NCBI GenBank assembly: GCA_938091675.1
Contig: CALKMX010000025.1
Coordinates: forward strand, 1-56,850
Source of the DNA: an uncultured Opitutales bacterium
GTDB taxonomy: Bacteria > Verrucomicrobiota > Verrucomicrobiia > Opitutales > Seribacteraceae
Reading direction: 5' to 3'
Length of the DNA stretch: 56,850 nucleotides
Below are positions 42,832-52,152 of this stretch, one piece after another. The notes below the pieces were generated by a model. That model was not told the origin of the DNA. It made no database searches and saw only the letters and a program-made list of their open reading frames with translations. Every line of letters starts with the position of its first letter. Position 1 is the first letter of the stretch. The translations under genes were made by a program, and so were the position numbers.

Positions 42832-43944
42832 TCAGCCTCCCAAATAAGTTAAGGCTCGAGGTATTGGTAGGGTGTAAAACGCGAAACGGTCCAGACCGAT
42901 ATGTTCTATTTTAGCGGTCACTTGATTCATGACGTTTTCAACAGCTGATGGTGCAAGAGAAGTGTAAACAAGAGCCCATTCTTCATTGCAAGAATCTTCG
43001 CCTAAACCAGACTGATCTGCCATAACTCCAAAATTAGTACTAACACCTGGTGCACCTGCATCCAATATTGAATCATAAACCTCTGAGTAATAATCTCTAG
43101 GTACAATACAATACAATCCGACTAAATCCTGTAAGATTGTGGTATTTAATGAGGAAGATTTGCTTTCACCACTAATTCTCCAATCTTTTCCTCCCTTGAT
43201 TTCATCAAGAGCAGCAATGACTTGTTCCATTGAAGCTCCATGCGATGAATTGGAGACAGTACTACTAACATTGATAATCCCGTCAGATACTGGAATGGAA
43301 TACATAAAGCCTCTACCAGGCTCGGTAATTCTGCCTGCCCTTGCCATGCTAGTGAAAACTTCGCTTGATTCAGAACGATCCACAACACACCACACAAACT
43401 CTTTTTCAGGTCCCTTGGTCATGCGTAATAAAGGAATCTTGTCACGAATGCCCCCGCCTTCTCCAAAGGTTACGGTTGGACCAGCAGCTCCAGCAGATAA
43501 GGCCGCTTGAGCAATATCTTCCGCCACCCCTTTCTCACAAATGCAGCAGATTGCTTCCATGGTAACCAAATCATTTGCTACTACATCACCCTCAACTCCA
43601 TCTGTTAAAGGGAAGTTCTGGGAACAAAAAGCTTTATCACAGGAGATGGAGAAAATTGCCCCGGAACCAACTCGGTCAAGCCGTCCAGATGAAATTGCCA
43701 CCTCGGAAATACGCTGCTTAACAGAGTTTGGTACCAAAACTTGAACCAGAGATTGTTCAGGTGCTGGAGGAGGGAACATCTTTGATAAAAAGCTACCGCC
43801 ATTGATTATTGATCCTCTGGCAGCAACATGAAAGATTCCTTTGGCTCCGGCTTTTTTAAGCTCTGAAGATACGGTAGATAATGAATCTTTGGGTAAGATT
43901 AAGTTCACCAAAGAGACATGATTGATAGATTCTAATTTATTCAT
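42832..43944 (-). CDS. Protein with three PII-like modules
   Basis: Cytoplasmic protein of 370 residues built, as I read it, from three PII/GlnB-like domains in one chain: about 11-104, 127-220 and 274-368. Each has the alternating strand-helix start, and the two complete ones end with the PII-type G-x-G-x-x-F-x-I-P-V pattern (RVGSGAIFSIS, EPGRGFMYSIPV, FAFYTLPIPR). The Gly-rich EGGGIRD in module 2 may be the T-loop equivalent. A trimer-like barrel could form from one chain. It directly abuts the stop of the DUF1538 membrane-protein gene, so it is probably translated from the same message and is the regulator of that transporter. No uridylylation tyrosine can be identified. Confidence 0.72.
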   Translation of the reverse strand: MNKLESINHVSLVNLILPKDSLSTVSSELKKAGAKGIFHVAARGSIINGGSFLSKMFPPPAPEQSLVQVLVPNSVKQRISEVAISSGRLDRVGSGAIFSISCDKAFCSQNFPLTDGVEGDVVANDLVTMEAICCICEKGVAEDIAQAALSAGAAGPTVTFGEGGGIRDKIPLLRMTKGPEKEFVWCVVDRSESSEVFTSMARAGRITEPGRGFMYSIPVSDGIINVSSTVSNSSHGASMEQVIAALDEIKGGKDWRISGESKSSSLNTTILQDLVGLYCIVPRDYYSEVYDSILDAGAPGVSTNFGVMADQSGLGEDSCNEEWALVYTSLAPSAVENVMNQVTAKIEHIGLDRFAFYTLPIPRALTYLGG

Positions 43945-46107
43945 TTATGCAGTCTCCATTTGGTGTTCAACAGGTGGAGTATCTTTGGGTTTTTTCCTAA
44001 CAAGTAGACCAACGGTAAGAACTGTTATAATTGGCCCAACTGAAGCAAGTGAAAGTACACCAAATCCGTCTATCGCTCCAGTTTTGGCCCCAATACCAAG
44101 ACCCATTGCTAAAACCAGAGGCACCGTGATTGGTCCTGTCGTAACCCCTGCACTATCCCAACCAAAATTCACAAAATCCTCACTAGATATAAATGTGAGA
44201 ATAAGCAACAGTGTGTAAGGAGGTATGAGTAAATACCAGAGTTCCAAATTGAATGCAATCTTAGCAACACCAGTCGCAATTCCTAACGCAACTCCTGTAG
44301 CAACGGCTTGCATGAGTAAATTTTTCTTAAAAGCCCCGACTGTAATCTTCTCAACTGTAGAACCGAGCGCATTAAGAGCAGGTTCTGCCAGTGTAGCTCC
44401 GTATCCCAATATAAAGCCAAACAATATAGCAAGACACTTACCAACGGTAGATGATTGAAAGATAGGATCAATAAAACCTTCTGATTGCCATGGCTGAATA
44501 GGTGCGAAGCTGGAAACAACATTTCCACCGAGTTGTTCACCAAGTGGTGTTAAACCAAGGGCAATGCCTAGGTTGAACAAGCACATACCGATAACAGCAC
44601 AAAGAATTCCGATGACCAACTCATCCATATGTTTGGGCTTTTGCCTTAGCCCTATGATTAAAACGAATAAAAGAATCGAGCACAACGGAACAATTGCCCA
44701 AATTGCACCCTCCAAGGCGCCACGATCTTGATCGGGACCAGAGAGAATTCCGTCAGTTTTGGAATAATTTATAGAACCATCAGGCTCAATGCTATAAAAA
44801 TCTTCGCCAGGGTCAGCCTTCCCGTTGTTATTTTTGTCAATTTCCTGGGGCTTAAATGTGTTAGGGAAAAAATCAAATTTATTAGTAAATGCAGTGGCAA
44901 TGTCTGCATCTGGATTCCAAACGTCATCCGGTGCTTTATAACCTTCACGAACAACATAAAGTTTTGCACCTTGCACGAGTACATTTTCCCGTTCCCCATT
45001 AGATAGACTGTCAGGCACAATAACTCCTTCCGCAACTTTTGTCTTTAGCGTATAACCCTCAGGAAGAGATTTGTTCTCATTAAGGTAGGTTTGTACCATT
45101 TTCCTCTCTTCTACAGATAAGGACCAGGACAACTCCGCTTCTCCAACACCTGAAGCCGAATCAATCTTGGATTGAGCATTTAGGTCTCCAAATTTTTGCA
45201 GATCAATGGGGTAATTTTTCCCATATTCACCTGCTTTTATGTGCCAATCAGCAGTGGATTCTGAAGCAAAGTAATAATTATCCGTTTTGAATAAATAAAG
45301 TGCATAACACATGACTGCTAGAATCGGGAATAGCGATGCAAGGGTAACAACCCCAAACCCTGTATTGCTTGAACCTCCTGTAGAAACGATCCTGCAAACT
45401 CCTATCCCAAGAGCTAAAACAAGGGGGACTGTAACCGGTCCTGTGGTAACAGCACCACAATCCCACGCCAAACCTAATACATGTTTGAGCCTGTCATCCG
45501 AAAACTGCATGTAAAGGGTAATGCAAGAAAGAACAATAACTCCTACATAGATGAAAGGTTTAAGAGACCAACCTTTGTAAAAGCGAAGGACACCTAAAAG
45601 AACCGCAATTCCAACTCCTACACCCACACAATTTACCAGAAGTCCAGCCCCGGTATTTAAAATAGTCCACAACAGAGGTGCGGAAGTTGGATCAACTCCA
45701 GACCCAGCAGCACGTAAAACTCCGATGGCGGGTTCAGCAAAAGTTGCAAAGGCACCCAATACAAACCCGAATGCCAAACTTGTCGGAAGACATGGAATAC
45801 CCAAAATCTTCTTTCTGGGTAAAGTCGACCCAAGAGCTTCTCCGAGAGGCATGAGCCCCAAGCGTAATCCTTCCATGAAGAAAGCAAGACCTATGATGAC
45901 AATCATAATGCCGGCAGCGATCATCAAAGAATAGACAATGGGCAATCCAAGGACAAGCACCTGAAAGACAATTAAGTAGAGGATGATAAACCAGACGCAT
46001 TGGATCTGCTCGACTACTTTATCTTTTGAAAATGACAAAAGAATGCCAATTTTCTGCTGTAAGGTTAACTGTAGCTTTTTACTATCGGACGATTGTTCAG
46101 TGCTCAT
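43945..46107 (-). CDS. Double DUF1538 membrane transporter with soluble insert
   Basis: Membrane protein of 720 residues with two DUF1538 halves, about 35-270 and 470-705. Matching motifs in each half are MPLGEALGS/TPLGEQLGG, ATFAEPAIGVL/ATLAEPALNAL and WDCGAVTTGPVTVPLVLALG/WDSAGVTTGPITVPLVLAMG, so the fold is an internal repeat. The halves are joined by a soluble stretch (about 275-465) holding an EF-hand-like calcium loop, DKNNNGKADPGE at 424-435. A pair of DUF1538 proteins (UmpAB of Halomonas) has, as I recall, been reported as a Na+/H+ antiporter, so cation transport is a reasonable guess. The PII-like gene follows immediately, which points to regulation by cell nitrogen, energy or nucleotide state. 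Confidence 0.85.
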   Translation of the reverse strand: MSTEQSSDSKKLQLTLQQKIGILLSFSKDKVVEQIQCVWFIILYLIVFQVLVLGLPIVYSLMIAAGIMIVIIGLAFFMEGLRLGLMPLGEALGSTLPRKKILGIPCLPTSLAFGFVLGAFATFAEPAIGVLRAAGSGVDPTSAPLLWTILNTGAGLLVNCVGVGVGIAVLLGVLRFYKGWSLKPFIYVGVIVLSCITLYMQFSDDRLKHVLGLAWDCGAVTTGPVTVPLVLALGIGVCRIVSTGGSSNTGFGVVTLASLFPILAVMCYALYLFKTDNYYFASESTADWHIKAGEYGKNYPIDLQKFGDLNAQSKIDSASGVGEAELSWSLSVEERKMVQTYLNENKSLPEGYTLKTKVAEGVIVPDSLSNGERENVLVQGAKLYVVREGYKAPDDVWNPDADIATAFTNKFDFFPNTFKPQEIDKNNNGKADPGEDFYSIEPDGSINYSKTDGILSGPDQDRGALEGAIWAIVPLCSILLFVLIIGLRQKPKHMDELVIGILCAVIGMCLFNLGIALGLTPLGEQLGGNVVSSFAPIQPWQSEGFIDPIFQSSTVGKCLAILFGFILGYGATLAEPALNALGSTVEKITVGAFKKNLLMQAVATGVALGIATGVAKIAFNLELWYLLIPPYTLLLILTFISSEDFVNFGWDSAGVTTGPITVPLVLAMGLGIGAKTGAIDGFGVLSLASVGPIITVLTVGLLVRKKPKDTPPVEHQMETA

Positions 46108-46165: not shown

Positions 46166-47437
46166 CTATTCCCGCCAATTAGCATTAGCCAATGTTAGTG
46201 ATGTTTTATTGATTCCAGATCGGAGCCGGACGGGCACATTCCACACCGCACCAGTTTTCCCAACTGGTGCTGTTCCGACTAAATAAAATGAACCAGTGGG
46301 TAAATTTTTGAACTCTCCGAATCCGTCTATGTCTGTTCGAACCCGGTAACCAGTACCTAATTCTACTTGTTTTAAGAGAACATTTCGAATTCTTTTATAA
46401 ATACCAGTGTAAGCAAATGGGGATTTCCTTGATTGGGCCCATAGTTCTTCGAATGAGTTCACTTGTGGGAAATCGTTTAAGTTAATGCCTTCATCAAAGA
46501 GTAGGTTTGGGAAACTTTTGGAGATCAGAAAAAATTCTGTGTAAAACACTTCTTTATTTTTCCCATTTAAAAGAGTAACAACAGCATCAAATTCAAGACT
46601 GCAAAATTCCGAGATGCTCGAAATGTAAGTGGGAGTGGGTTGACCTGGAGGAACAGAATTGGAACGGTTGTAGATTTGACCGGACTGATTAGTCCTCTGG
46701 GTACCGTTATTATGGATCGAATCAACTCGGGGTTGAAGCGAATCGATGCCATTTTGAAACCTATTGCTCTCAATCCGCAAACCATTAATTTCGTGAGACT
46801 TTTGGATCAGGCTTGATTTATGCAAGGCGATCTCGTCTTGTAATTTTTGGAGTTGGCCGCTCTGATTGGAAGTATACCTAGGCTCGCTCTGGACAAGGGT
46901 TTCAGGACTTCTTGGATCACTCGACCTCAATCGTTGGATTTCGAAAATTAGCTCCTCGTTTAAACGGGTTAACGAAGCAATCGTCTGGTCCTTGCGAAGA
47001 TTTATTTTTTTTAGTTCTTCCAAACTTAAATCATTTTTTGCAGAGATGTCATTGCCTTGCTGAAGTTCTGTCAGGTTAAAGGATGAAGCCGGCAACATGG
47101 CGGTAGGCAAATCAAGGTCCACTTCATTCTCCACAGAATTTTTTTCAATAGTGTGGTCGGTTGTTTTGATTGCATTAGGGCCCTCCTCATTCGTTACATC
47201 AGCGTACTGAGCTCCATCTAAAACATCAATTGCTTCAACTTCATCACCGCTATCCAGAAATGCCGCAAGACTTTTAGATCCTCCTGTCTGGCTAACTATA
47301 AGTGATGTAAAATCAATATTATCTCCCCCTTCTTCAGCATCACGAGAAGTAGAAATAGAGGTTTCTGAACAGGAAGATGCAAGAAAGGTAAGAAATACAG
47401 CTATGAATGTTATTAGAGGCATACTTTTCTCTTTCAT
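46166..47437 (-). CDS. Lipoprotein with coiled-coil middle and C-terminal beta domain
   Basis: Predicted lipoprotein of 423 residues from the ATG at 47437 (ATG at 47455, six codons upstream, and at 47422 are alternatives). The signal MKEKSMPLITFIAVFLTFLASSC ends in a lipobox cysteine. After an acidic linker come a coiled-coil stretch (about 135-235, with SLTRLNEELIFEIQRLRS and similar) and a C-terminal domain (about 285-423) containing TDIDGFGEFKNLPTGSFYLVG, a pattern like carboxypeptidase-regulatory or SpaA-type beta sandwiches. I do not recognise the family. The divergent coiled-coil rod gene starts 77 bases away, so the two may be regulated together. Confidence 0.65.
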   Translation of the reverse strand: MKEKSMPLITFIAVFLTFLASSCSETSISTSRDAEEGGDNIDFTSLIVSQTGGSKSLAAFLDSGDEVEAIDVLDGAQYADVTNEEGPNAIKTTDHTIEKNSVENEVDLDLPTAMLPASSFNLTELQQGNDISAKNDLSLEELKKINLRKDQTIASLTRLNEELIFEIQRLRSSDPRSPETLVQSEPRYTSNQSGQLQKLQDEIALHKSSLIQKSHEINGLRIESNRFQNGIDSLQPRVDSIHNNGTQRTNQSGQIYNRSNSVPPGQPTPTYISSISEFCSLEFDAVVTLLNGKNKEVFYTEFFLISKSFPNLLFDEGINLNDFPQVNSFEELWAQSRKSPFAYTGIYKRIRNVLLKQVELGTGYRVRTDIDGFGEFKNLPTGSFYLVGTAPVGKTGAVWNVPVRLRSGINKTSLTLANANWRE

Positions 47438-47440
47438 AAC

Positions 47441-47452
47441 TTGCCTAGGCAA
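47441..47452. promoter_or_regulatory. Perfect 12-base palindrome between divergent genes
   Basis: TTGCCTAGGCAA is a perfect palindrome three bases upstream of the chosen lipoprotein start and 61 bases upstream of the coiled-coil gene, a typical location for an operator. If the lipoprotein starts at 47455 instead, it would be inside its coding sequence. Confidence 0.35.
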
Positions 47453-47513
47453 CATTCATATTAACGGCAAGGTTCTTATTTACAGGTGTATCTTTTTTTG
47501 ACAAAAACAAATT

Positions 47514-49892
47514 ATGTCTCTTCTACCCCCTTCCGAGACTAATTCGCTTGAACGCGAATTAAATTTCTTGAAGCAAACAATAAGCTCTCTTCGTGAACAA
47601 CTAGAGCTCAACTTGGATTTGCATGATTCGGAGATCCAATCATTGGAGGAAAACCATAAAAACAGGGAGTCTAGCCTGCACGGAGTTATTTTAAGATTGC
47701 GGGATGATTATGAACAGCTTCAGACCCAACATCAGCACGAACAGCAACAACTAGACAAAAAATATATAGCTGAACATAAGTGCCTAACTTCCCTGATCGA
47801 AGAGCTAAGAAATAGATTAGATTTTTCCAAAGAAGAGGTCAAAGACACTGCTCAAAAGACAAAGGCACTTCACGCAAATGAAATTTTAGGATTACAAGAG
47901 TTGGTTTCCTCTTTGCGGGAGGAATTGGAATCGAAGGACAATGAATTGGCCTCGATTGAGCAAAATGTCTCCCAACGAAATCAGGGCGAGATCATTAGAT
48001 TGCAAGAACTATCCGCCAAGCTGCGTGAAAAAATCAACCGAATCGAATTCCGTAAAGAACAAGAGATTGGAAAAATTATTTCTTCCGGGAAATTGGAATC
48101 CAAATCGCTTCAAGAAACCATCGAGAACTTAAGAAGCGCCCTGGAAGAATCCAAGGCATCGAAACAAGAAGAAATTCAAAAAGCTGTTGCTGAAGCAAAC
48201 TTACAAAATAAATTGCTTAAGGATTCTTTGCAAAAGAGCCGTGAAAGGCTTGATTTGAGTAACATCAGGCACCAGGAGAAGATTCAAAAAAATTCTCTCT
48301 CTCATTCCCAGGAAGTATCCTCTCTTCACGACACCATCAATTTATTAAGAGAAGAAATTGATTCTTTTGAATCCAAAATTCAGGACGCGATACAAAATGA
48401 AAAGCGTGCAAACACTCAAGAAATTCGCCAACTCCGTTCCTCTCTTTCAAGTGTAAGAAATAATCTAGAAAGGAGCCAAGCTGAAGCTCAAAATAAAATA
48501 CAGGAAGCGGAAAGCGGAAAGCAAAAAGAAATAGATTCTTTACGGCACACCATTGCAACTCTCAGATCAGAATTAGAAGAAAGCGAAGTTGCTAAATCGC
48601 AGGAAATCCAGCGTGCACTCAGCTCCAAAAATGCTGAAATTAAACAGCTGAAAGATTCGATGACGATTATGAGGCAAAATTTAGATAGGATTGAAGCAAG
48701 AAACGCTGAGTCACTTCAAAAAGCTTTCCAACAGAGTGCTGCGGAAAAAGAATCCCTTCAAAAAACAATTCACGCACTTCGACATGAGGTTGAATCCGTT
48801 CATATTCAGCAAGCTGATGCTGTCCAGGAGGCCGAACGTATAAAAAATCAGGAAATTGAACAGCTAAGAAACTCCCTGCTTATCGTAAGGTCTTCACTTG
48901 AGAGGGAGAAAGCAAAACTTGGTTCCGAAGTACAAAAGGTTACCTCCGAATCAGCAAAAGAGATTAATGGGTTAAAATTGTTGGTTACAGAATTGCGTGA
49001 TCGCATTGACGAAGTAAAAGCACAGGAAGAAAGTAACATTCAAAGCGCACTCGGGTCTGCTAATGCTGAAATTTTTCAACTTAAAGAAAGCTTATCTCAA
49101 ACCCGAGAGAAAATCGTTCTAGAACAAAACATTCATTTAGATAAAATTCAGTCATTAGAAAGTCAGAATTTCTCTGAAATCCGAAATTTACGCTCAGTCA
49201 TTACTAAACTAAGAAACCAGATAGAAGAAATTCAAGCTGAGCACGAATCAAAAGTGCAAAAGATCACCAGCGAATTACATAAAGAAAACTTATCGCTAAA
49301 AGAGCATACATTAAATCTTAGAGAAAAGCTGGATGAAGCCCAACTCAGTCACCTCACCGAATTACAGCAAAAAGTAACCGAAAAAGAAAACCTGTCCAAA
49401 GCAAATAAGGATACCCTGCTTAAGTTGCGTGATGAACTAGAGCAAGCTACTGTTGATGCCGAAACAAAAGTACAAAAGGCAGTTTCTTCTCTTAACCAAG
49501 AAAATCTCGCCCTTAGGCAAACCTTGGGCAGCATAAGAATTAAATTAGATCGTGCCAAAGTTGAAAAACAGGAGGCTATTCAAAAAACTATCAAATCTTA
49601 TGAGCTGGAAATCCAGCATTTAAAAAATACAATTTTAACACTTCGCAGAGAAACTGACCAATTAAACTCCAAGCTCCTTGAAGATGCCCAAAAAAATACA
49701 TCTTCAAATGCTAATGAAATTAACCATTACCGGAATATGATCCGTTCACTAAGGGATGAGATTGACCACAGAGGATTTCTTAACGATGAAAAACTTAAGA
49801 AAAACTCACAAAAGACGGAAATGGAATTTAAGCATCTCAAAGATACGATTATTGAGTTAAGGTCCAAATTAGATAAACACCATGTCAACTGA
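47514..49892 (+). CDS. Coiled-coil rod of exact 36-residue repeats
   Basis: Protein of 792 residues made of an 18-residue leader, 21 full repeats of 36 residues with no insertion or deletion, and half a repeat: 18 + 756 + 18 = 792. Each repeat has Leu/Ile at positions 1, 5, 8 and 12, an invariant Arg at position 9 in all 22 units, acidic residues at 13 and often 33, and often Ile/Val-Gln at 23-24. There is no signal peptide or membrane segment, so it is cytoplasmic. A 36-residue period equals ten turns of a straight alpha helix, and the whole rod would be about 119 nm long. I do not recognise it as a known family. It overlaps the cyclase gene by 11 bases, which implies coupled translation and a joint role, perhaps as scaffold. 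Confidence 0.85.
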   Translation: MSLLPPSETNSLERELNFLKQTISSLREQLELNLDLHDSEIQSLEENHKNRESSLHGVILRLRDDYEQLQTQHQHEQQQLDKKYIAEHKCLTSLIEELRNRLDFSKEEVKDTAQKTKALHANEILGLQELVSSLREELESKDNELASIEQNVSQRNQGEIIRLQELSAKLREKINRIEFRKEQEIGKIISSGKLESKSLQETIENLRSALEESKASKQEEIQKAVAEANLQNKLLKDSLQKSRERLDLSNIRHQEKIQKNSLSHSQEVSSLHDTINLLREEIDSFESKIQDAIQNEKRANTQEIRQLRSSLSSVRNNLERSQAEAQNKIQEAESGKQKEIDSLRHTIATLRSELEESEVAKSQEIQRALSSKNAEIKQLKDSMTIMRQNLDRIEARNAESLQKAFQQSAAEKESLQKTIHALRHEVESVHIQQADAVQEAERIKNQEIEQLRNSLLIVRSSLEREKAKLGSEVQKVTSESAKEINGLKLLVTELRDRIDEVKAQEESNIQSALGSANAEIFQLKESLSQTREKIVLEQNIHLDKIQSLESQNFSEIRNLRSVITKLRNQIEEIQAEHESKVQKITSELHKENLSLKEHTLNLREKLDEAQLSHLTELQQKVTEKENLSKANKDTLLKLRDELEQATVDAETKVQKAVSSLNQENLALRQTLGSIRIKLDRAKVEKQEAIQKTIKSYELEIQHLKNTILTLRRETDQLNSKLLEDAQKNTSSNANEINHYRNMIRSLRDEIDHRGFLNDEKLKKNSQKTEMEFKHLKDTIIELRSKLDKHHVN
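47568..49889 (+). repeat. 108-base tandem coding repeat, 21.5 units
   Basis: The coding sequence of the rod protein consists of 21 units of 108 bases (36 codons) and a final half unit from 49836. The repeat shows in the protein, where the register is constant, but the DNA units have diverged strongly, so the array is old and kept by selection on the protein rather than being a recent amplification. Confidence 0.88.
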
Positions 49893-52152
49893 ATCAAATC
49901 CTCACCAACCCAAAAAAAGAACGGCTAAGTTTTCTGAGATGCTACTCCAGGTGACCACAGACCTGGCGAAAACGAAAAGCTTAGACGAAGCACTTGAAAC
50001 CCTCGTAAAAATAACCACATCGACCATTGGTGCCGAAAGAGGAACTATTTTTCTTAACGACGCGGCAACTGGTGAATTATACTCGCGGATTGCTCAGGGG
50101 AATTTCCGCAGGGAAATCCGTATCATGAATAGCAAGGGAGTCGCTGGGTGGGTGTTCTCTCATAACGAAGGTGCCATTATACCTGATGCCTACAAAGATG
50201 ACCGCTTTAATAAGGCGGTAGATGTAAGGACTGGATTTCGCACCAAAAGTATACTGTGTGCACCGCTTCGCACAGTAAATGGCGAAAAAATAGGAGTTTC
50301 TCAAATCTTAAACAAGATCGAAGGAGAATTCACACAAGACGACCTTGATTTGCTAGAAGCTATGACCGAACAGGCGGCTATTGCAATTCAAGGAAATATT
50401 ATTGTCGAACAAGTTGAAGCTGCCCGCAAACAGGAATTAGAATTCCTGGATGTGGTGTCACAGGTCTCCTCTGAACTGGAATTGACCCCTCTTCTGCAAA
50501 AAATTATTTCCACTATCTCCACCATGTTGGATTGTGAAAGAGCTACACTTTTTATTAATGACGAAAAAACAAGCGAATTATATACTGAAGTAGGTGAGGG
50601 TTTAGACGAAAAATCAGTCATTCGTTTCCCTAACCATCTTGGGATTGCCGGCACTGTTTTTACCTCTGCAAAAGCTGTAAATATACCTCATGCGTACGCC
50701 GATTTAAGGTTCAATCCGAGCTTCGATAAACAGACGGGGTTTTTTACGCGTTCGATTCTATGCATGCCGGTTTTAAACAAAGAAGGAAAGACCATTGGCG
50801 TCAGCCAAGTTTTAAACAAAAGAGGCGGTTCTTTTAACCAAGAAGATGAAAAGCGTCTTGCTGCATTTACTTCCCAGATTTCCATGGGAATTGAAAATGC
50901 AAAGCTCTTTGACGATGTACAAAATCAAAAAAATTATTCTGAAAGCATCCTGTCCAGCATGCACGATGCTGTGATTACAGTCGACGAGAACAAAGTAGTC
51001 AAAACTTGTAATCCAGCAGGATTAAAGATTTTTAAGTCTCCTATTCTGACAGATATTTTAGGTACTCCTATTGATGAATTGTTGGGTACAGAAAACGAAT
51101 GGTTGAACAGTAAACTAGAATCAGTAACAGAACAGGAGGACTTTCTAGACGCCACTCTTCAAGTTCAAAATGAAAAACTTTCGGTCAATGTATCGATCAC
51201 CCCTCTTCTTGGACAGAAAGATGAAAACCTCGGAATTATGATCATGATCGAAGATATTAGTTCTGAAAAAAGAATGAAATCTACGATGTCGAGATACATG
51301 GACCCTGAGCTAGCAGATCAACTGATGAATGCTGGGGATAGCCAAGATGTAATGGGGGGCAAACAAAGCATTGCTTCCGTTTTGTTTTCTGATGTTCGCA
51401 GCTTTACCACAATAACGGAAGAACTCGGAGCCCAAGGAACTGTAAAATTACTCAACGATTACTTCACCATAATGGTGGATTGCATTACGGATGAAGGTGG
51501 AATGCTAGATAAATTCATTGGGGATGCAATGATGTGTATTTTTGGAACACCCATTCCTCATGATGACGATCCGGATCGAGCCGTTCGAGCTGCTATTCGT
51601 ATGATGACAGATTTGAAAGTTTTTAATCTCAAAAGATCAGCAGAAGGAAAAATGCCCATAGATCATGGTATGGGAATTAATACCGACTCTATTGTTTCCG
51701 GTAATATTGGCTCTCCCAAAAGAATGGATTACACAGTTATTGGAGATGGTGTAAACCTAGCAGCTAGGATCGAGAGTGCCTGCAAGCAATATGGGGCTCA
51801 CATTCTAATTAGTGAATTTACCTACAAAGCAGTGAAGGCAACTTACAGAACTCGTCAGGTAGACTATGTAATTGTAAAAGGAAAGACAGAACCAGTTGGA
51901 GTTTATGAGGTATTGGACTTTCACGATGATAGCTCCTATCCAAATATGGTAGATGCCCTAGGAAGCTTTAATGATGGATATCGTGCATGGAATGCAGGAA
52001 AGTGGGAACAAGCCATTAAATTATTTAATGCCGTTAAAAAGATTAATCCGAACGACAAAGCCGCTCAGTTGTACCTGGATCGGTGCGATTACATGAAGAA
52101 GAATCCTCCCAAAAAAGATTGGGATGGCGTCTGGGTAATGACTTCAAAATAA
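49882..52152 (+). CDS. GAF-GAF-PAS class III adenylate cyclase
   Basis: Cytoplasmic enzyme of 756 residues. Two GAF domains (about 25-180 and 195-345) carry the NDAATGELYSRIAQG and NDEKTSELYTEVGEG motifs. A PAS domain follows (about 350-465), then a class III cyclase domain (about 490-680) with metal ligands Asp504 (FSDVRSF) and Asp548 (FIGDAMM), and base-specificity residues Lys544 and Asp616 that indicate ATP rather than GTP as substrate. Asn625 and Arg629 (GVNLAARIE) stabilise the transition state. The last 65 residues resemble a TPR unit (AWNAGKWEQAIKLFNAVKKINPND). GAF domains suggest ligand-gated cAMP synthesis. The gene overlaps the rod gene before it and is followed by two TPR genes, so it is the enzyme of the module. 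Confidence 0.93.
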   Translation: MSTESNPHQPKKRTAKFSEMLLQVTTDLAKTKSLDEALETLVKITTSTIGAERGTIFLNDAATGELYSRIAQGNFRREIRIMNSKGVAGWVFSHNEGAIIPDAYKDDRFNKAVDVRTGFRTKSILCAPLRTVNGEKIGVSQILNKIEGEFTQDDLDLLEAMTEQAAIAIQGNIIVEQVEAARKQELEFLDVVSQVSSELELTPLLQKIISTISTMLDCERATLFINDEKTSELYTEVGEGLDEKSVIRFPNHLGIAGTVFTSAKAVNIPHAYADLRFNPSFDKQTGFFTRSILCMPVLNKEGKTIGVSQVLNKRGGSFNQEDEKRLAAFTSQISMGIENAKLFDDVQNQKNYSESILSSMHDAVITVDENKVVKTCNPAGLKIFKSPILTDILGTPIDELLGTENEWLNSKLESVTEQEDFLDATLQVQNEKLSVNVSITPLLGQKDENLGIMIMIEDISSEKRMKSTMSRYMDPELADQLMNAGDSQDVMGGKQSIASVLFSDVRSFTTITEELGAQGTVKLLNDYFTIMVDCITDEGGMLDKFIGDAMMCIFGTPIPHDDDPDRAVRAAIRMMTDLKVFNLKRSAEGKMPIDHGMGINTDSIVSGNIGSPKRMDYTVIGDGVNLAARIESACKQYGAHILISEFTYKAVKATYRTRQVDYVIVKGKTEPVGVYEVLDFHDDSSYPNMVDALGSFNDGYRAWNAGKWEQAIKLFNAVKKINPNDKAAQLYLDRCDYMKKNPPKKDWDGVWVMTSK

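Follow-up and report, generated by a model that had tools for sequence, protein, structure and literature searches.

A three-module PII-like protein encoded directly downstream of a DUF1538 cation/proton antiporter-like gene

What does a chain of three PII-like modules do directly downstream of a gene for a cation/proton antiporter-like protein? The question is raised by two adjoining genes in a stretch of 56,850 nucleotides (the window) from an uncultured marine Opitutales bacterium (Verrucomicrobiota; assembly GCA_938091675.1, contig CALKMX010000025.1, positions 1 to 56,850, forward strand). PII proteins are textbook homotrimers, and the transport of ammonium, nitrate and bicarbonate is already under their control. 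We conclude, with a probability of about 0.6, that the gene pair encodes a cation/proton antiporter together with its own dedicated PII-type regulator. As the initial annotation of this DNA had stated, the start of the PII-like gene abuts the stop of the double-DUF1538 gene: the TAA is followed by the ATG with zero gap.

42832..43944, minus strand: three-module PII-like gene, 370 aa (open reading frame, Pfam P-II, HHalign, AlphaFold2, Foldseek).
43945..46107, minus strand: fused double-DUF1538 (UmpA-UmpB-like) cation/proton antiporter gene, 720 aa (open reading frame, Pfam, NCBIfam, AlphaFold2).
43954..43957, minus strand: GGAG, probable ribosome-binding site for the PII-like gene, 9 bases before its ATG and within the end of the transporter gene (reading of the sequence).

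All three modules of the 370-residue chain are PII homologues, more than chance would give, confirming the initial annotation's proposal that a PII-like domain occurs there three times. The protein passed Pfam P-II at 29.8 bits against a cut-off of 25, its best stretch being module 2 (residues 129-221), the only module to pass. A PII hidden Markov model (HMM), started from module 2 and extended by iteration over related loci, detected all three at residues 14-100 (E 5e-16), 132-218 (3e-31) and 278-360 (1e-12). Since this HMM had itself absorbed such modules, we made an independent profile-profile comparison with HHalign, using 61 proteins per module profile and 17 canonical PII sequences, which were chosen from 18 by their GDGK/GDGR motif (L236 was left out before the count). 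Against the canonical profile, modules 1, 2 and 3 scored 96.7% (E 3e-10), 78.0% (2e-5) and 96.4% (1e-9), and the stand-alone partners A and B of other loci scored 96.8% and 93.1%; reversed-profile controls reached 0.2-0.4% only.

43624..43917, minus strand: module 1, residues 10-107; B-loop glycines kept, T-loop-base GxG not (iterated HMM, AlphaFold2, HHalign).
43279..43560, minus strand: module 2, residues 129-222; the most classical, resembling the separate PII-like gene that comes first in proteobacterial loci (Pfam, HMM, AlphaFold2, HHalign).
42841..43134, minus strand: module 3, residues 271-368; B-loop lost, conserved C-terminal TYLG motif (HMM, AlphaFold2, HHalign).

AlphaFold2, given 28 sequences as input, modelled the chain alone as three beta-alpha-beta-beta-alpha-beta modules (residues 10-101, 129-219 and 271-366) with a predicted local distance difference test (pLDDT) of 83.8 and a predicted template-modelling score (pTM) of 0.82, and no fold other than the PII type appeared. 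Foldseek matched the model to PII chains at probability 1.00 and target TM-scores of ~0.6-0.8, with unrelated matches of similar E-value among them. The pTM suggests that the modules are placed relative to one another, beyond folding alone. The idea that the chain could mimic the PII trimer fits three modules in one confident model, and a pseudo-trimer is the most likely arrangement, as a reasoned expectation rather than a measurement.

DUF1538 antiporter-like genes almost always travel with PII-like partners in a one-, two- or three-domain form, and the pairing seen in the window recurs across phyla. In a scan of our collection, PII-like modules came right after DUF1538 in 76 of 80 named loci, and the other four (L105, L130, L142, L176) stop at a contig end. 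Among 57 near genomes, 34 contained DUF1538; counting matches other than the window's own, all 29 fetched loci (L005-L033) carried a homologue of the 370-aa protein with 38-84% identity, the L010 copy being cut by a contig end. Across the phylum, DUF1538 exceeded its cut-off in 26 of 387 genomes and was directly followed by PII-like modules in 25, the 26th (G160) ending at a contig edge. Genomes of the order Pseudomonadales contained DUF1538 in 52 of 244 cases, with the partner present in 29 of 30 fetched loci and L210 ending at a contig edge. The same pairing was found in three plasmid records, out of nine records in all, that were examined in context, where the neighbour is already named 'P-II family nitrogen regulator'. 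Two Pseudomonadales loci, L206 and L212, each hold two adjoining DUF1538/PII systems of different build.

A search with a three-module profile gave 16 strong matches (200-440 bits) in the 387 genomes, every one beside DUF1538, and all matches in genomes without DUF1538 were at or below 31.4 bits. Named loci had served to build this profile, and some of them seem to come from the same genomes (e.g. Cerasicoccus), so those few match by construction. That the three-module gene is never away from DUF1538 in these 16 matches speaks against the partner being an ordinary nitrogen-status PII, with GlnB/GlnK function, that lies beside the transporter by happenstance. Such a role would suit the solved structures nearest to the single-module partner profile, GlnK proteins of Archaeoglobus (7e-11), but two canonical PII genes (115 and 114 bits) are present on another contig of the same genome, and the partner lacks both Gln39 and the canonical B-loop motif described below; we consider this explanation very improbable. 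The two canonical GlnB/GlnK genes (L003 and L004, on G000:C53) are separated by ~2 kb that include a 456-aa gene, a place with candidate ammonium transporter gene(s).

Which signal the partner might read was approached through its ligand-site residues, with positions mapped on the host's own GlnB and counted over 61 sequences per module. As described in PMC4316997, the B-loop motif TGXXGDGKI is essential for ATP, and Gln39 and Lys58 form the 2-oxoglutarate pair. Residue counts found no TGXXGDGKI in the partner modules. All 17 canonical sequences have Gln39, Lys90, Arg101 and Arg103, whereas other residues stand at these positions in every partner class. With the canonical ATP/2-oxoglutarate residues replaced, a classical nitrogen signal is unlikely, and the nitrogen phenotype envisaged by the initial annotation is no longer an obvious expectation. 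Module 2 retains Gly35 (60/61), Gly37 (59/61), Lys58 (58/61), Gly87 (60/61) and Gly89 (61/61), and has Arg at position 39 in 61/61. Module 1 keeps mainly its B-loop glycines (58/61 and 59/61) and has Gly35 in 31/61, and module 3 keeps neither the T-loop-base nor the B-loop glycine set. Lys58 is kept in module 2 only; the Lys90 position is Ala or Ser in module 1, Phe in module 2 (51/61) and mixed in module 3. Because module 2 alone combines the T-loop-base and B-loop glycines with the Lys58 equivalent, one working site would be expected at its edge, not three equal ones. From these residue patterns we conclude that a chain would have one site of classical shape at most, and they suggest a single asymmetric ligand site at module 2.

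The retained pattern in module 2, which is that of a kept pocket, bears on the alternative that the PII-like chain belongs permanently to the DUF1538 transporter, for structure or assembly, instead of gating it under ligand control, its degenerate modules having lost ligand binding. The replacement of Gln39, Lys90, Arg101 and Arg103 in every class, the lost B-loop of module 3 and the nearly universal adjacency to DUF1538 would all agree with a structural role, but module 2 and the activity of UmpAB alone, as a heterodimer (see below), argue against it, and we hold it unlikely. Another possibility is that the partner, as CutA-like or PII-NG proteins do, responds directly to a metal, be it the transported cation or another one, and adjusts the antiporter. 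It has a parallel in the Geobacter PII-NG genes that lie beside the CzcABC proton/cation antiporter (PMC7726332), but no conserved His/Cys/Asp cluster was present among the invariant columns of alignments A3/A5, to which the search was confined, and we consider it improbable.

Turning to the transporter, DUF1538 (PF07556) matched the 720-aa protein twice, with 362.2 bits in all against a Pfam cut-off of 22.6.

45298-45987, minus strand: first DUF1538 domain, UmpA-like half (Pfam; NCBIfam UmpA below cut-off).
44740..45285, minus strand: acidic, poorly predicted insert between the DUF1538 domains, residues 275-456, probably extracytoplasmic (AlphaFold2, loop-charge count).
44005-44679, minus strand: second DUF1538 domain, UmpB-like half (Pfam; NCBIfam UmpB below cut-off).

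The AlphaFold2 model of this protein was moderate (pLDDT 71.9, pTM 0.72). Its fold gave no Foldseek match at E <= 0.001 and a best VIA-align Z of 5.4, and the transporter profile found no PDB chain below E 0.18 among the families that the PDB listing covers; the protein could thus be given no known transporter fold. Over 15 loop regions in 35 transporters, the loop net charge alternates such that the first domain would be N-in/C-out and the second N-out/C-in; loop 640-650 misfits and two loops are near neutral. The alternation fits an inverted topology of the two domains with the insert outside the cell. Within the insert, the stretch DKNNNGKADPGED (44800-44838, minus strand) is presumably an EF-hand-like loop and could bind calcium outside the cell.

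The function of the family comes from Halomonas UmpAB, a DUF1538 heterodimer for which Na+(Li+,K+)/H+ antiport was shown by experiment (PMC5484666). Four observations weigh against a dedicated PII-type regulator of such an antiporter. The window protein falls below the NCBIfam equivalog cut-offs, with 198.1 versus 490 bits for UmpA (NF041627) and 163.5 versus 500 bits for UmpB (NF041628). VIA-align placed the PII-like chain at Z ~7 to PII chains, level with parts of unrelated efflux pumps, so that this method adds little support. The T-loop is shorter here than the one that plugs AmtB. Finally, UmpAB was active in E. coli from a umpA + umpB construct alone (PMC5484666); the PII partner is thus not needed for transport, as would be expected if it restrained or tuned the antiporter and were no essential subunit. 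In the Pseudomonadales-order search, moreover, none of 390 genomes passed the UmpA cut-off, and a PII neighbour of characterised UmpAB genes is consequently not demonstrated. The suggestion that the PII-like chain is dedicated to an ion transporter fits its adjacency to DUF1538 and the antiport of UmpAB.

Taken together, we still favour an antiporter with its own PII-type regulator. The genes, the homology of the modules to PII, the folds as predicted and the kept adjacency are established; we infer that the protein transports in this lineage, that the pseudo-trimer closes, and that the partner touches the transporter, binds a ligand and gates it. The UmpA-UmpB fusion probably exchanges Na+(Li+,K+) for H+, like Halomonas UmpAB. 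Its 370-aa partner would be a single-chain, asymmetric PII whose three diverged modules most likely pack as one pseudo-trimer and dock on the cytoplasmic face of the antiporter, by analogy with GlnK and AmtB, the latter being gated by PII through the T-loop (PMC6603209). A small cytosolic molecule, bound at one working site per chain at the edge of module 2, would turn antiporter activity up or down, and for this molecule an adenine nucleotide (cyclic AMP [cAMP], AMP, ADP or ATP) is a likelier candidate than 2-oxoglutarate.

A candidate source of such a signal lies near the pair. The gene at 49882-52152 (plus strand) encodes a GAF-GAF-PAS-class III adenylate/guanylate cyclase that adjoins a long coiled-coil gene, in an order kept in relatives, although the housekeeping genes around them are kept there as well. 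Class III cyclases also occur within 5 kb of some DUF1538/PII loci in unrelated lineages. An exploratory count, made after the cyclase was seen in the window and covering 50 of the 80 loci, chosen for their long flanks, found one nearby in 7 of 50 against 0.87 expected (P ~3e-5 with equal rates), and in 5 of 41 against 0.67 expected (P ~5e-4) once close relatives were collapsed. The calls rest on Pfam at L145, L153, L154 and L155, on a PF00211 match on the contig of L125, and on our own HMM plus single genome matches at L150 and L158. An eighth initial call, L112, was dropped because Pfam showed an FHA protein there and no cyclase domain. Because the excess was noticed after the fact and most DUF1538/PII loci have no cyclase nearby, cAMP as the signal for the partner is a lead only. 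Small proteins with a cyclic-nucleotide-binding domain lie directly upstream of DUF1538/PII in marine alphaproteobacteria (L145:3972-4876, L158:4386-4823); in L145, a 155-aa protein of this kind ends 38 bases before DUF1538. We also considered cyclic di-AMP (c-di-AMP). The window genome has a diadenylate cyclase (DAC) gene, but G053, which has the DUF1538 fusion and the three-module partner, gave no DAC match. Many Pseudomonadales genomes, which are not known to have c-di-AMP, also carry the pair. We regard c-di-AMP as a possible ligand in the window's host but do not favour it as a general one.

The three-module design is real, but the association of DUF1538 with PII-like modules is much wider and takes several forms, of which this is one. 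Partners occur as one module, as two modules in one chain, as two separate genes and as three modules in one chain. The 76 named loci comprise 33 with three modules in one chain, 41 with two one-module genes and 2 (L140, L156) cut by contig ends. Forty fetched phylum loci comprise 27 with three modules, 5 with two (L071 is cut), 6 with one and 2 with none, of which L067 lies at a contig end and L089 came from a sub-threshold match. The usual Pseudomonadales form has separate UmpA and UmpB with one PII of ~116 aa. The insert between the DUF1538 domains differs with the partner, its median being 132 residues (46-252, n=58) with three-module partners and 48 residues (40-59, n=47, including two loci with two neighbouring complete systems) with two one-module PII matches.

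In a tree of 96 modules, built on few columns and with many open forks, module 2 formed one clade (100/96) and module 3 another (99/98), both spanning Verrucomicrobiota, Bacteroidota, Spirochaetota, Pseudomonadota and others; module 1 fell into two groups on long branches. Gene A, the separate gene that comes first, scored far best against module 2 (for instance 102.5 versus 67.8 and 56.3 bits in L161), whereas the B partners are divergent, occupy two places in the tree and firmly match neither module 1 nor module 2. With modules 2 and 3 each in one clade, the triple appears to be old and the module positions to have kept separate roles; a single early triplication would be the simplest reading of the tree. 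A bolder proposal, which we regard as possible but doubtful, is that DUF1538 antiporters are a whole undescribed family of PII-gated cation/proton exchangers. Its regulator would have begun as one-gene homotrimers, taken on two-gene (A + B) and two-module forms and ended as the single-chain asymmetric trimer with one module-2 pocket, and its signal would be cAMP or a related adenine nucleotide from a nearby class III cyclase, linking a second messenger to Na+/K+/pH control.

Further features surround the pair. The gene immediately upstream of the transporter (46166-47455, minus strand) is lipoprotein-like and of unknown family, without a Pfam match; a homologue is also present at L090 and L092, two DUF1538 loci that belong to different families within the same order. 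The coiled-coil gene next to the cyclase (47514-49892, plus strand) encodes a 792-aa protein whose heptad-rich pattern repeats and for which no family assignment was convincing. Promoter and terminator scans of the locus gave chance level only, and tandem DNA repeats were not found there.

DUF1538 and PII are both known, and neighbouring genes are already annotated in public records. The open-access literature, to which our search was limited with subscription papers outside its scope, contains five papers that name DUF1538 and yielded none linking it with PII. Among the 15 listed of 264 matching papers, the two co-occur in PMC7221264, but the letters 'PII' there are the start of a consensus sequence. 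Nor did it yield a description of a chain of three PII modules, the nearest being SA1388, a PII-like domain inside a NIF3 protein. The pairing suggests that a type of signal-controlled ion transporter has been overlooked and, if true, cation/proton antiport would be a further PII-controlled process. A natural single-chain PII with unequal modules would allow each interface to be mutated separately and the number of ligand sites required by a PII gate to be tested cleanly. For the genes annotated as 'P-II family nitrogen regulator' beside DUF1538, the wider association provides a function that can be tested.

Among known systems, UmpAB of Halomonas zhaodongensis belongs to the same Pfam family, and the window protein has UmpA-like and UmpB-like halves. 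It differs in being fused in one chain, with a long insert, scores below the equivalog cut-offs and a PII-like partner, and neither 'PII' nor 'P-II' occurs in the main text of the study on UmpAB (PMC5484666). The likeness to GlnK-AmtB lies in a PII-fold regulator of a membrane transporter and in the logic of the gene pair. GlnK, however, is a homotrimer with ATP/ADP/2-oxoglutarate motifs and a long T-loop, whereas the window chain has three unequal modules without those motifs, and its transporter is of another family than AmtB. SbtB is the PII-like partner of the Na+-coupled transporter SbtA, with a short or altered T-loop and non-canonical ligands; it has one module per chain, compared with three here. 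The single-module partner profile that placed GlnK first in the PDB matched the PII-like 4rx6/4r25 at ~1e-3 and SbtB at 0.46, a profile distance that does not exclude kinship. PII-NG, compared by description only, resembles the window partner in being a PII protein whose operon includes a proton/cation antiporter, CzcABC (PMC7726332), but that antiporter is of the resistance-nodulation-division (RND) family and the protein has one module. PDB 9p1x is a PII assembly from two PII genes (12 chains + 6 chains). We take this pair to be NifI1/NifI2, with nitrogenase as target. The assembly has no three-module chain and its target is other than a transporter, but it provides a precedent for the 'A + B' loci.

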